64,000 nt of DNA from assembly GCA_024697185.1 (NCBI GenBank), contig JAILGB010000011.1:1-64000 (forward strand), read 5' to 3'. This document shows, one piece after another, positions 5,550 to 42,165 of the stretch; the stretch's first letter is position 1, and each line of letters begins with the position of its first letter. Both the position numbers and the translations under genes were made by a program. Origin of the DNA: Opitutales bacterium (lineage in GTDB: Bacteria > Verrucomicrobiota > Verrucomicrobiia > Opitutales > UBA953). Under the pieces are notes generated by a model, which saw only the letters and a list, made by a program, of their open reading frames with translations, was not told where the DNA came from and made no database searches.

Positions 5550-6677
5550 TTAAGCCTGCTCCGATTTGAGCGTCCGGCTCCTGCCTTCGGCGAAATTCAC
5601 CAAATCGTTGACGACGTTGCTCCAATCGAACTCACGCTGCATGCGACGGATATTGTCTCTAAAACGCCCCAAAAGCTCGTCGTCGAGGATGATAGCCTTG
5701 ACTTCGGGTGTCAGTGTATCAAGATTTTTTTCCTCAATCAAAACGCCGGCGCCTTTTTCGCGAAAAAACTCCGCGTTCGCCAACTGATGATTGTCCGCAG
5801 CCAACGGATACGGCACCAAAACCGCGGGAGCGCAACAGGCTACAAACTCCGCCAGGGAACCGGCACCGGCGCGCGAAACGATGAGGTCCGCCGCCGACAA
5901 CGCCGACGCCATATCATCGCAAAAGGGGATGAATTTGGCGCACGCGCCCGTCTCCTCATTTTTTGTCGGGACCTGTGAAAAGTCCGTCTTCTGCTCCGGT
6001 CCGGTGATCACCATCATGGACACGCCGAGTCCGAGCATTTCGGGAACGATCGATTTTGCCCATTCGTTAAGGCGGTGGGCACCTTGACTGCCGCCAAAAA
6101 CCATCAGCAGTTTTCCTGTTTGCGGGAGCTCGAATTTTTGACGTGAGGCGGCCTTGTCGAGCGCCCTCATTTCTTCTCTGACGGGGAATCCGGCGCTGCG
6201 CGTTGCGAAACGGCGCGCCCCGGACAAACGCACGCCCGGCGGCAGATAGACGCGGGCCGCCATACCGCTCATAAAGCGCACAGATTTGCCGGGAACACGG
6301 TTGGCTTCGTGCAAAACGACGGGAATAAAAAGCAGTTTGCTCGCAATCGCGGAGCCGATTGTCAAAAAGCCGCCGAAACTGACAAATGCCGCCGGACGAC
6401 GACGCAAAAACAAAAACAGGCTGGCGAATACCGACAATACGAGATTATAAAAAAACTTTATCAGTTTTATAGGTTTCAAGCCGAATGCGCAGCCTGAGAT
6501 GCGAACAAAGTCGAGATCCGTGTATTTTTCCGAAAGGCGACTGTCTATTTTCTTGCGGCTAAGCAAAAGCGTGCAATGGTAACCGCGGGCGGTAAGGCGT
6601 TGCGCAAGCGCGATGCCCGGAGAAAGATGCCCGCCGGTGCCGCCGCAGGCGATAATAAAAGATTTTTTTTTCTTCAT
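5550..6677 (-). CDS. murG: UDP-GlcNAc:undecaprenyl-PP-MurNAc-pentapeptide transferase MurG
   Basis: Adds GlcNAc to lipid I to make lipid II at the inner face of the membrane. At 375 residues it is typical. The N-terminal loop CGGTGGHLSPG (11-21) is the signature of the family. FGGSQGAHRLNEW and SRAGAGSLAEF, with the PYPLAADNHQLANAEFF segment that binds UDP-GlcNAc, lie in the C-terminal half. It stands outside a mur/fts cluster, 42 bases after pssA, and is probably the last gene of the pgm-lipoprotein-RelE-like-pssA-murG transcript, which is otherwise envelope-related. Confidence 0.96.
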   Translation of the reverse strand: MKKKKSFIIACGGTGGHLSPGIALAQRLTARGYHCTLLLSRKKIDSRLSEKYTDLDFVRISGCAFGLKPIKLIKFFYNLVLSVFASLFLFLRRRPAAFVSFGGFLTIGSAIASKLLFIPVVLHEANRVPGKSVRFMSGMAARVYLPPGVRLSGARRFATRSAGFPVREEMRALDKAASRQKFELPQTGKLLMVFGGSQGAHRLNEWAKSIVPEMLGLGVSMMVITGPEQKTDFSQVPTKNEETGACAKFIPFCDDMASALSAADLIVSRAGAGSLAEFVACCAPAVLVPYPLAADNHQLANAEFFREKGAGVLIEEKNLDTLTPEVKAIILDDELLGRFRDNIRRMQREFDWSNVVNDLVNFAEGRSRTLKSEQA

Positions 6678-22723: not shown

Positions 22724-23287
22724 CTATGCGCGACCGAGATAAGTCTTGTCTTCAGTGCTGACGCGGATCTTTTCGCCTTCCGCGATAAAGAGCGGAACAT
22801 TAATGGTGATGCCGGTCTCAACCTTGACAGCCTTTTGGGCGTTCGTCGCCGAATTGCCCTTGACTGCCGGCGGAGCCTCGACAACGGTCATCTCGATCGA
22901 AGCGGGCAGCGAAACCGTCACCGGCTTTTCCTCGACAAAGAGAACATCATATTGCTGACCTTCGATCAAAAAGCCCGCGATGTCCGACAATTTGTCCTGA
23001 CCGATCGGATATTCTTCAAAAGTCTCCGGATCCGAAAAAACATACGCACCGTCCGCCGTGTAAAGCAAATCGAGCTTGCGAATGCTGTTTTCGAGCACAT
23101 CAAAAGAAGCACCGATGTTGGTGCGGACCGGGATAACGTTACCGTAAGTCAGCGAACGGAGTTCCATCTGACAATAGGAAGCATTGTTCGGAGGAGTCCG
23201 GACCTGACATTCGAGCACGATGCAAAGATCTCCGTTGTAACGGATAATATTTTTACGCTTAATGTTATTGACTGTTGTATTTGCCAT
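22724..23287 (-). CDS. efp: Elongation factor P with an asparagine at the loop tip
   Basis: Relieves ribosome stalling at polyproline by acting next to the P-site tRNA. Starting at the ATG at 23287 there are 187 residues in the three-domain EF-P layout, with an N-terminal KOW-like domain and two OB domains (VEEKPVTVSLPASIEM; VKVETGITINVPLFIAEGEKIRVST). The critical loop reads R30-T-P-P-N34-N35-A. Aligned by position, N34 falls where E. coli has the modified Lys34 and many Verrucomicrobia have Arg. No lysylation or rhamnosylation gene is nearby. A second, canonical EF-P may exist elsewhere. Confidence 0.9.
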   Translation of the reverse strand: MANTTVNNIKRKNIIRYNGDLCIVLECQVRTPPNNASYCQMELRSLTYGNVIPVRTNIGASFDVLENSIRKLDLLYTADGAYVFSDPETFEEYPIGQDKLSDIAGFLIEGQQYDVLFVEEKPVTVSLPASIEMTVVEAPPAVKGNSATNAQKAVKVETGITINVPLFIAEGEKIRVSTEDKTYLGRA

Positions 23288-28963: not shown

Positions 28964-29914
28964 TTATCGGACAAAACTCAAAACTTGGAAAGCGTGTCCC
29001 ATTTTGGCGGGGTGAATCAGCTCCATCAGTTTCGCGCGCCATTCGTTCCCGCGAGCGGAGATCTCCATGATTTTTTCGGGAACGAGATTCATAAAAAACG
29101 CTTCCTGGCGCCGCGTGACGACTTCGCGCGCCCCGCGGGAACGCGCAACAGCCTCGAGCCGCTCCCACATGACATGGCAGGTCAGATCCTGTTCGCCCGG
29201 ACGCGCCAGCAGATCGTTGCTCTGCGTGTGCCGGTAATACGCGCGCGCCGTTCCCGCGGGGAAGCCTGTCAGGCAGTCGGCGACCGTCTTGCCGTAATCG
29301 GGAAAAATCGCAACGCCGTGCCAGTCGCCGCCACAAATCGTCGCCATCAGGTTTTCCGCCTCAAGGGAAATATCAAGATGCCAGCCGTCATCGGGAACGT
29401 CGAGCGTTCCCGCAAAATCCGCCAGGCGCGCGTTAGAAAATTTTTCAAGCAGCACTTCACAAAGTCCGCCGTCGTTCCCGCGCGTCACCCCGATCTCCCG
29501 CCAAGCGCCGTCACAAACGAGCAGACGCGCAAACGGCTGCGCATCAAAAAGTTCGTTGGCGAAGACAATCGCTTCAGGCGGAATAACGATCGGCTCCCCG
29601 ACGCGAATCGTTTTTACGGCGCCAAAATGCCGTTTCGCCTCGCGGACAATCGGGCTCTCGCTGCTCTCGGAGCCGATTTCGACAAAAGTGAAGCGCGACC
29701 AGTCGGGCGTCGCGGAGCCGGCGGCGTTCCCGCGAAGCAGTTTTTTTGCCGCCTCACAAAGCAACGGGGCAAAAACGGACGCGACCGATGTTGCCGTATA
29801 AAAGTCCGTTCCCGCGGCGATCCCGACACGAGTCGCGTTCCCGCGCGTGTAATAGCCGTGTTGCGGATCAAAAAGCGCCTGACGCGAAAAATCCTCGAAG
29901 CCGATTGCGTTCAT
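28964..29914 (-). CDS. MidA/NDUFAF7-like SAM-dependent methyltransferase
   Basis: 316 residues of the DUF185 (Methyltransf_28) family; mitochondrial NDUFAF7 methylates an arginine of complex I. Visible are FSRQALFDPQHGYYT, FTFVEIGSESSES (SAM loop region), IVFANELFDAQPFARL and FPDYGKTVADCLTG. NEL and YG are the family's key positions. RGN and AGT tripeptides from the iterated GGGAACG motif occur at least six times in the protein. It follows speA by 12 bases. With nuoM-nuoN a few kb away a complex I role is tempting but unproven. Confidence 0.85.
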   Translation of the reverse strand: MNAIGFEDFSRQALFDPQHGYYTRGNATRVGIAAGTDFYTATSVASVFAPLLCEAAKKLLRGNAAGSATPDWSRFTFVEIGSESSESPIVREAKRHFGAVKTIRVGEPIVIPPEAIVFANELFDAQPFARLLVCDGAWREIGVTRGNDGGLCEVLLEKFSNARLADFAGTLDVPDDGWHLDISLEAENLMATICGGDWHGVAIFPDYGKTVADCLTGFPAGTARAYYRHTQSNDLLARPGEQDLTCHVMWERLEAVARSRGAREVVTRRQEAFFMNLVPEKIMEISARGNEWRAKLMELIHPAKMGHAFQVLSFVR

Positions 29915-29926
29915 AGCAAACGGCGT

Positions 29927-31879
29927 TTATTTTTTGCGACGTTTTGACTTTGCCCTGCCCGCCGGCGAAAGCAGGTAGGATTTTCCCGCGATCAGTTTTT
30001 CATAAAGATCGAGCAGGGAGACGCCTTCGCGCGCCTTGACGCGTTTTTCCTTGATTGCCGCGTCCACCTGACGTTTTGCCAGACGGCAAAGGTCGGACGC
30101 ATTGTATTGGATCATCTCGAGAATTTTTTTGATCGAATAGCCTTCGATGGTTTCTTCGATATAAAAACCGCTTTCCTCTTCATCGTCGAGGAAAACGTGG
30201 ACTTCGTTCACCCGCCCGAAAAGATTGTGCAGGTCGCCGATAATATCCTGGTATGCACCGACCAAAAACGCGCCGAGATAATAAGGCTCTCCACATTTCA
30301 AGGGATGCAAGTCCAAGGTCGGACGCACATCTTCAAAATCGACGAACTCGTCGATCTTGCCGTCGCTGTCGCAGGTGATATCGACAAGTGTCGCGGGAAC
30401 GGTGGGTTTTTCGTTGAGCCGGTGAATCGGCGCGAACGGGAACAGCTGCTTGATCGCCCAGCTGTCGAGCAGCGATTGAAAAACTGAGAAATTGCAGACG
30501 TATTGCTCGGAGAGCATCGCGTCCAGGCAGGTCAGCTCTTCGGGGATGTTCCCGCCGAGCGCCGGCAACGCGCGATGGATCTGCCGGCAGATCTGCCAAT
30601 AGAGCCGGTCCGCCTCCGCCCGGTTTTCGAGCGAGAGCCTGCCGTGCTGGAAAAGCTGGTGGGCGTCCGACCGCTTGGCTCCCGCATCGTGAAAACGTTC
30701 GAGCAGCGAATAGTTTGACGGGTGCTTTAAGATCTCTTCCAAATCTTTGACGATCCGGTCTTTTTTGTGGGAGATCAACGGGACTTCCGAATTGTCGGCT
30801 GTCACAATCTTGCCGACGACATCCAAGATCAAAACAGAATGCGGCGCCACAATCGCGCGCCCGCTCTCGGAAGTGATCGTCGGATGCGGCACGTCGGCGT
30901 CGTCGCAAACGGATTTGATGTTTGAAACCACGTCGCGGGCATAAATCTCCATCGTGTAATTCATCGAACTCTCGTAATTGGAACGCGAGCCGTCATAATC
31001 GATGCCGAGTCCGCCGCCGACGTCAATACGCCCCATCGGGAAACCCATGCGGTAAAGTTCGCAATAAAAATGGGCGGCTTCGGCGCAGGCGCTTTTAATA
31101 GTCAAAATATTGGGCACCTGCGAGCCGATATGGAAATGCAGCAGCTTCAAACAATGGGACATCTTGGCGCGCTTGATTTTTTTTGCCGCGGCAATAATTT
31201 CTCCCGGAGTCAAACCGAACTTTGCGTGTTCGCCCGTCGATTTTGCCCATTTGCCCTCGCCCGAAGTCGTCAGCTTGACACGAAAACCGATCGCGGGAAC
31301 GCAGTTCATCTCCTTCGCCAGGCGGACAATGCGGTCCACTTCGTCCAGCTGTTCGATGACAATGATTGTCTGCTTGCCCAAAAGCTGCCCCAACATCGCC
31401 AGGCGGATATAATCATCGTCCTTGTAACCATTACAAATCAGGAGCGCTTTTTTGTTCTCAAGTTGCGCCAAGGCAATCAGCAGTTCCGGCTTCGAACCCG
31501 CCTCCAGCCCGTAGTCAAACTCCTCGCCGGCATCGGTGATCTCTTCGATAACTTCGCGCAACTGGTTGACCTTGATCGGGAAGACACCTTGATATTTCCC
31601 GTCGTAGTTTTCCTCTTTGATCGCAGCCCTAAACGCCTTGTTGAGCTGAATCACGCGGGAACGCAAAATGTCTTGAACCCGGATCGTCATCGGCGGACGC
31701 AGCCCCATGCTTTCCGCTTCCTTGATCACATCGTAAAGACGGATTTTGCGTTCGTCACCCATCGGATGAGCGTTCAAAAACCCTTCTTCGTCAACACTGA
31801 ACAAATTGCCGCCCCAACGTTTGAAACCGTAATATTCTTCCGCTTCAGAAGGCGACCAGGGAATCAATTTGCTTTCCAT
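29927..31879 (-). CDS. speA: Biosynthetic arginine decarboxylase SpeA
   Basis: PLP enzyme making agmatine from arginine for polyamine synthesis. 650 residues from the ATG at 31879, the usual long type. Visible are GVFPIKVNQLREV (PLP-binding lysine), DYGLEAGSKPELL, LLHFHIGSQVPN, RIDVGGGLGIDYDG and TSESGRAIVAPHSVLI. The C-terminus is strongly basic (KSKRRKK). I chose 31879 over the ATG three codons upstream because a TATAAT (31887-31892) overlaps that first ATG and would start transcription at about 31880. It heads an operon with the MidA-like gene. Confidence 0.94.
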   Translation of the reverse strand: MESKLIPWSPSEAEEYYGFKRWGGNLFSVDEEGFLNAHPMGDERKIRLYDVIKEAESMGLRPPMTIRVQDILRSRVIQLNKAFRAAIKEENYDGKYQGVFPIKVNQLREVIEEITDAGEEFDYGLEAGSKPELLIALAQLENKKALLICNGYKDDDYIRLAMLGQLLGKQTIIVIEQLDEVDRIVRLAKEMNCVPAIGFRVKLTTSGEGKWAKSTGEHAKFGLTPGEIIAAAKKIKRAKMSHCLKLLHFHIGSQVPNILTIKSACAEAAHFYCELYRMGFPMGRIDVGGGLGIDYDGSRSNYESSMNYTMEIYARDVVSNIKSVCDDADVPHPTITSESGRAIVAPHSVLILDVVGKIVTADNSEVPLISHKKDRIVKDLEEILKHPSNYSLLERFHDAGAKRSDAHQLFQHGRLSLENRAEADRLYWQICRQIHRALPALGGNIPEELTCLDAMLSEQYVCNFSVFQSLLDSWAIKQLFPFAPIHRLNEKPTVPATLVDITCDSDGKIDEFVDFEDVRPTLDLHPLKCGEPYYLGAFLVGAYQDIIGDLHNLFGRVNEVHVFLDDEEESGFYIEETIEGYSIKKILEMIQYNASDLCRLAKRQVDAAIKEKRVKAREGVSLLDLYEKLIAGKSYLLSPAGRAKSKRRKK

Positions 31880-31886
31880 TTTTGTC

Positions 31887-31892
31887 ATTATA
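31887..31892 (-). promoter_or_regulatory. Perfect -10 element at the start of speA
   Basis: TATAAT lies seven bases upstream of the ATG at 31879 and its last two bases overlap another ATG. The -35 is poor (TTTTAA at a 17-base spacing). If used, the transcript would be leaderless. Confidence 0.45.
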
Positions 31893-42087: not shown

Positions 42088-42165
42088 TGGTCGGGCAGGA
42101 GGGATTCGAACCCACGACCCTCTGCTCCCAAAGCAGATGCGCTAGCCAGACTGCGCTACTGCCCG
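42088..42165 (-). tRNA. tRNA-Pro (anticodon TGG), CCA encoded
   Basis: The minus strand folds into a full cloverleaf. The acceptor CGGGCAG pairs with CTGCCCG; the anticodon stem CTGC/GCAG holds the loop TTTGGGA with anticodon TGG; the T arm contains GGTTCGAATCC. Discriminator A and CCA follow at 42088-42091. A C1-G72 first pair is typical of bacterial tRNA-Pro. Confidence 0.96.

Follow-up and report, generated by a model that had tools for sequence, protein, structure and literature searches.

An asparagine-tipped elongation factor P with a Pro32-Pro33 loop as the sole EF-P found in an Opitutales bacterium

The only elongation factor P (EF-P) found in the genome of an Opitutales gut bacterium carries asparagine at the tip of the loop where E. 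coli EF-P has its modified Lys34, and proline in place of the glycine usually found at position 33. The gene lies in a stretch of 64,000 nucleotides (contig JAILGB010000011.1, positions 1 to 64,000; hereafter, the window), and it is neither a second copy nor a one-off, as its loop is fixed throughout the bacterium's family. We consider it probable, though far from certain, that this EF-P acts unmodified, its loop being stiffened by the Pro32-Pro33 pair while Asn34, together with the backbone, positions the tRNA.

The efp gene, its product and the loop tip

The window efp is a full-length EF-P gene that shows no sign of degradation (Table 1). Its product passes the Pfam cut-offs for all three EF-P domains (EFP_N, 39 bits; OB, 50.2 bits; C-terminal, 79.3 bits). 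Against the NCBIfam efp profile TIGR00038 it scores 172.3 bits (E 8e-51), below the stricter cut-off of 185.8, and against the subfamily profile PRK00529 it scores 170.6 bits, above the cut-off of 161. The AlphaFold2 model is confident (mean pLDDT 87.0) and predicts an EF-P fold: the top PDB matches are EF-Ps, with TM scores of 0.87 to 1ueb and 0.89 to 6enj, the latter being EF-P on a polyproline-stalled ribosome. In the model, strands at residues 20-30 and 38-45 enclose a seven-residue loop, 31-37.

Table 1. Positions in the window of the efp gene, its diagnostic residues and a tRNA-Pro gene
Feature	Position	Strand	Basis
efp, elongation factor P (187 aa + stop)	22724..23287	minus	Pfam/NCBIfam profiles, HMM alignment, structure model
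beta3-beta4 loop codons, residues 31-37, TPPNNAS	23177..23197	minus	alignment, model, DNA
Asn34 codon AAC, at the E. coli Lys34 position	23186..23188	minus	alignment, codon reading
Domain-3 motif GNS, residues 144-146 (GDT in most EF-Ps)	22850..22858	minus	alignment
tRNA-Pro(tgg) with 10-nt D-loop, the tRNA class read by EF-P	42088..42165	minus	

The loop has the canonical length of seven residues and reads T31-P32-P33-N34-N35-A36-S37, encoded by ACT CCT CCG AAC AAT GCT TCC (23197-23177). The first-pass annotation had described the protein as an EF-P with asparagine replacing the modified lysine or arginine and had read the loop as T31-P-P-N34-N35-A, and both statements are borne out. Asn34 falls on Lys34 when the protein is aligned with E. 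coli EF-P, and a gapless HMM alignment with the solved EF-Ps 6rk3 and 5j3b again places N34 at the Lys position; neither alignment puts a Lys or an Arg there, the outcome that the annotation had named as refuting its reading. The protein therefore has neither the Lys34 of the lysine type (EpmA pathway) nor the tip Arg without Pro at -2 of the arginine type (EarP pathway); with Asn34 and Pro32, it belongs to the class counted by Volkwein et al. 2019. Two further departures, Pro33 and GNS in place of the GDT motif in domain 3, had gone unmentioned in the earlier annotation, as had the strand of the gene.

Copy number and conservation

The genome of the bacterium (1.59 Mb, 97.4% complete, 32 contigs) yields a single EFP_N match. 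When its relatives are included, an EF-P match is found in 51 of 57 genomes, one per genome, and all 51 loops were read. The window's family (f1) contributes 37 genomes to this set; 35 have a match, and 35/35 read TPPNNASY, the two without a match (G013 and G023) being drafts of 330 and 300 contigs. Among the remaining 20 genomes of the order, the 16 with a match comprise 12 TQGR, 1 TRGR, 2 TPPN and 1 TPGN. Comparison of the window efp with seven congeners gives dN/dS values of 0.07-0.12, and the gene is thus under purifying selection (dN/dS about 0.1). Moreover, a non-redundant set of 22 TPPN and 24 TPGN EF-Ps has N34 throughout, with both AAC and AAT codons in use, and residues 35-36 vary within the TPPN set while N34 stays fixed; given that both types are defined by their Asn, this invariance means that no third residue was encountered at the tip in these lineages beyond the two Arg clades.

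Distribution across the phylum

The nearest kin of the window EF-P are found in Opitutales/Opitutia MAGs, including that of Ca. Spyradosoma merdigallinarum (80% identity). Two MAG records titled Akkermansia muciniphila (L102) and Polynucleobacter meluiroseus (L080) also hold a window-family TPPN efp, and their titles look wrong. Scanning a genome collection, which overlaps the set of relatives' genomes, with an Asn-tip EF-P alignment returned 80 loci, all with Asn34 (57 TPPN and 23 TPGN), a set biased to Asn by design because one of the two search patterns contained RTPPN.

In a sample of the whole phylum, 111 of 115 genomes have an EF-P match. The loops read at 70 loci comprise 44 Lys34, 11 TPGN, 4 PPR and 1 TQGR, the other 10 loci being divergent, either as second copies or as single hits. 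Every primary EF-P copy read in the class Verrucomicrobiae is of a non-Lys type, and every one read in the rest of the phylum has Lys34, including the intermediate L182 (HRTPGKGQ). Within the class, Asn34 (TPGN or TPPN) is widespread, with TPGN in several families that include Opitutaceae, and TQGR and PPR are present as two Arg34 types. The earlier statement that many Verrucomicrobia have Arg thus holds for some lineages (TQGR, PPR) and fails for the window's family (TPPN) and for the families with TPGN, Opitutaceae included. The PPR loop, which combines Pro33 with Arg34, occurs at L171-L173 and L180, which belong to the class families f22 and f26; these, too, have no DHS-like gene.

In a maximum-likelihood EF-P tree of 110 rows, from which the loop columns were excluded, the EF-Ps of the class and the intermediate L182 form one clade (support 100/99), and TPPN is a single group (100/100). 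Two MAGs from outside the phylum, assigned to Ca. Raymondbacteria and Chitinivibrionales, nest inside TPPN (98/85 together), a placement that suggests inter-phylum transfer of the gene, although mis-binning is possible for the Chitinivibrionales MAG because its contig is short (5.4 kb). The Ca. Raymondbacteria MAG (G168; L269, L273) encodes, besides its TPPN EF-P, a second EF-P whose loop reads TARGGAV. When the tree is rooted with the Lys types, its drawing looks as if Asn34 were the early state of the clade and both Arg types were derived.

Modification enzymes

No EpmA was found above the genX cut-off in any of the 57 genomes, whereas controls including E. coli matched, and the matches below the cut-off have the size of ordinary aminoacyl-tRNA synthetases; the epmA search proposed by the first-pass annotation has thus come back empty. 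The earP search proposed alongside it was equally empty (0/57 and 0/115 genomes), but it constitutes weak evidence because no control genome matched either. The DHS family (PF01916), for which controls did match, is missing from the window's genome; of the 57 genomes only G049 has it, the sole TPGN genome of that set.

In the phylum sample, DHS-family proteins are found in 25 of 115 genomes (23 above the cut-off). They occur in all 18 genomes of families f14, f23, f24, f25 and f27, for which 12 of 18 loops were read, all TPGN, and in no class genome of f1 (TPPN), f11 (TQGR), f22 or f26 (both PPR), where loops were read for part of the genomes. Among the genomes of the scan loci (50 of 80 checked), 18/23 TPGN genomes have a DHS-family gene versus 1/27 TPPN genomes. 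Of the 64 clade rows of the tree, DHS is present in 20 and absent from 4 TPGN rows, as against 1 and 39 in the other rows; the association gives a Fisher p of 1e-11, a value that ignores kinship, and amounts to two independent contrasts on supported branches. The family is also found in some Lys34 genomes. Of six DHS-like proteins that were profiled, five fall under all NCBIfam cut-offs, and that of G067 (TPGN) is a 1,9-bis(guanidino)-5-aza-nonane synthase. An uncharacterised DHS-like subfamily accompanies TPGN EF-Ps even in the single-contig genomes G090 and G111, of 0.9 Mb. Bacterial DHS homologues have been shown to make homospermidine or caldomycin (PMC10981699), and DHS-like proteins were noted by Volkwein et al. 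in some species with Asn-tip EF-Ps (PMC6544042). Since there are two supported contrasts only, some Lys34 genomes also carry DHS and the known products are polyamines, the link with TPGN hints at a connection but may simply reflect ancestry.

Genomic neighbourhood

Of the 13 genes neighbouring the window efp, only purL recurs near efp elsewhere, and rarely (3/57 TPPN, 0/23 TPGN and 0/13 Arg-type loci, the last having shorter flanks); hence, no gene travels with efp. An FGE-sulfatase-domain protein with a lipoprotein-like N-terminus, encoded next to the window efp, was considered as a modifier and rejected, as it is not conserved beside efp. N-glycosylation was likewise discarded: N35-A-S37 is a sequon in the window type, whereas the TPGN loops, which read N-L-R, lack one. 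A gene for a Methyltransf_28-domain protein, a putative SAM-dependent methyltransferase (28964-29914, minus strand), lies about 5.7 kb upstream of efp and was not found near efp in the other loci. The window also holds an arginine decarboxylase-like gene (29927-31888), and at L105 the TPPN efp has in its vicinity an ORF (5835-6458) whose product resembles a pyruvoyl-dependent arginine decarboxylase. Within the family's genus g2, efp is found beside a CoA ligase gene as well as AA_kinase- and RRF-domain genes (pyrH- and frr-like), which by sequence resemblance is an ordinary translation context.

Polyproline demand and tRNA-Pro

Polyproline content was estimated with a simple self-trained gene caller on 80-302 kb per genome (coding fraction 0.65-0.89), so the ratios are coarse, and their intervals are wide. 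In the bacterium's own genome, PP occurs at 0.70 and PPP at 0.46 of expectation, the latter being low but imprecise (4 observed versus 8.6 expected; interval 0.08-1.04). Another TPPN genome, G008, shows 0.82 for PP and 1.78 for PPP. The corresponding values are 0.75 and 0.59 in the Arg-type genome G040 and 0.86 and 1.38 in another Arg-type genome, and PP stands at 0.75 in the PPR-type G075. The TPGN genome G072, which has one EF-P match, reaches 1.32 for PP and 3.32 for PPP, and its Asn34 EF-P therefore appears to cope with a heavy polyproline load. Moreover, ValS, the classic essential PPP protein, keeps its PPP (SIVIPPPNVTG). This retained motif and the PPP-rich genome with a single TPGN EF-P make it very probable that Asn34 EF-P has kept its role in relieving proline stalls.

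The two tRNA-Pro genes sampled from the bacterium (one in the window, Table 1, the other at L210 18512-18589, minus strand) have a 10-nt D-loop. The D-loop of tRNA-Pro is also 10 nt in L290, outside the class, and in L113 (TPGN), and is 9 nt in L012 (TQGR). It has been shown that E. coli EF-P needs a 9-nt D-loop and that enlargement by 1 nt abolished its action (PMC4890201); thus, recognition of tRNA-Pro may differ here.

Interpretation and alternative explanations

We propose that the window efp supplies a Ca. Spyradosoma-like Opitutales bacterium with its housekeeping EF-P, whose Asn34 tip would function without any known modification. The loop would be stiffened by Pro32-Pro33, and positioning would be carried out by Asn34 and the backbone, in contact with the tRNA. 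Of the options offered by the first-pass annotation, action in the unmodified state is the one favoured by the absence of EpmA above the cut-off, of a DHS-like gene and of a conserved neighbour, with EarP adding a negative that lacks a control. In E. coli, the K34N variant is inactive and G33A and G33S lose function (PMC6544042), so one would expect a protein with Asn34 and Pro33 to fail in the E. coli context. This counts against the proposal and implies a co-adaptation of loop, ribosome and tRNA-Pro in this lineage. The low, if imprecise, PPP ratio of the own genome and the enlarged D-loop of tRNA-Pro also weigh against it. The 10-nt D-loop may be part of that co-adaptation, but the same size is found in the one L290 tRNA from outside the class.

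Modification of Asn34 by an enzyme not yet described, also among the options of the first-pass annotation and amounting to a new activation chemistry with the invariant N34 as acceptor, would accord with the fixation of N34 across TPPN and TPGN while its neighbours vary, with the inactivity of K34N in E. coli, with the presence of a DHS-like gene in 20/24 TPGN versus 1/40 other clade rows, and with the DHS-like proteins seen by Volkwein et al. in some Asn-tip species (PMC6544042). We regard it as unlikely, since the DHS-like gene is missing from the window's genome and from 26 of the 27 TPPN genomes searched, the link comes down to two contrasts on supported branches, similar genes occur with Lys34, one TPGN copy is assigned to 1,9-bis(guanidino)-5-aza-nonane synthesis, and efp has no conserved neighbour. 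The amide nitrogen of asparagine is also a poor nucleophile. A more far-reaching scenario, which we hold to be improbable, joins the observations into one history: Asn34 would be ancestral in Verrucomicrobiae; TPGN EF-Ps would be activated through the DHS-like polyamine enzyme, either with the side chain of Asn as acceptor of an aminobutyl-type transfer or via the polyamine made; and f1 would have lost the enzyme and gained Pro33, the second proline being a structural fix that yields a modification-free EF-P, with PPR and TQGR as two other escapes.

The factor might instead be weakened, in a proteome that avoids polyproline and leaves most rescue to ABC-F ATPases, so that EF-P plays a partial role. 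The low PP and PPP ratios of the own genome, its three ABC_tran_Xtn (ABC-F domain) matches, the long branch of the window protein (0.31 versus 0.065 and 0.095 in two congeners) and GNS in place of GDT could all be read in this way. Yet a dN/dS of about 0.1 and the retained PPP of ValS speak for a maintained function, the PP depletion is within intervals no stronger than in G040 or G075, G008 has PPP in excess with the same loop, and the ABC-F complement is ordinary (ABC_tran_Xtn matches in 8 of 14 controls); a weakened factor is therefore rather improbable. That the protein is a specialised paralogue of a true Lys- or Arg-type EF-P encoded elsewhere, another option of the first-pass annotation, hardly seems credible. 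A gap in the assembly could conceal such a gene, and the Ca. Raymondbacteria MAG does pair a TPPN EF-P with a second EF-P; however, one EFP_N match is found in the own genome (G000) and in each of the 34 other family genomes with a match, and, as the proposed search for a second efp yielded none, this reading was dropped. Unmodified action with a proline-stiffened loop is thus the explanation that we retain.

Relation to known EF-Ps and significance

Asn34 EF-Ps as such are already known and counted in print: Asn34 was found in 2.23% of 1166 EF-Ps, all with Pro32 (PMC6544042, Volkwein et al. 2019), and PMC11611912 likewise refers to Asn tips. The window protein shares the Asn tip and Pro32 with that class, whereas Pro33, the family-wide fixation and the two non-verrucomicrobial MAGs are features that go unmentioned in the sections of Volkwein et al. 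that were consulted. In the literature searched, these features, with the TPPN loop as a type, and the link of TPGN loops with a DHS-like gene that is missing from nearly all TPPN genomes are apparently undescribed. In comparison with EpmA-modified E. coli EF-P, the fold, the seven-residue loop and Pro32 are the same, but Asn34 and Pro33 replace Lys34 and Gly33, in a genome without an EpmA match above the cut-off. EarP-modified Pseudomonas EF-P shares the fold; the window tip differs in having Pro32 and no Arg, and no EarP was found in a search that no control matched.

Modification-free function has precedents. EfpL (YeiP), the EF-P paralogue of E. coli, has the EF-P fold, works with an Arg tip reported to be unmodified and acts on proline-containing stalls; unlike the window EF-P, it has that Arg tip and a longer loop and is a second copy beside EF-P (PMC11611912). 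The window protein stays far below the cut-offs of the EfpL equivalogs (115.3 versus 216 bits and 107.9 versus 264.05 bits). An actinobacterial EF-P subfamily reportedly keeps an unmodified Lys tip, unlike the Asn of the window. For that subfamily (Pinheiro et al. 2020, via PMC11611912), a stiff loop is said to make modification unnecessary, as is proposed here; PMC11611912 also names a stiffened loop as a route to modification-free function.

In over half of bacteria, the genome encodes none of the known enzymes that modify EF-P (PMC6544042), and how EF-Ps act in such bacteria is the question on which this family bears. If the scenario of DHS-like activation, improbable as it is, were true, it would add a fourth EF-P activation chemistry together with a record of its loss. 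The lineage series TPGK, TPGN and TPPN, with the two Arg types, provides matched natural variants. A family whose sole EF-P has an Asn tip, with Gly33 replaced and no EpmA- or DHS-type enzyme found, allows one to test cleanly, in a natural setting, whether the shape of the loop suffices by itself.
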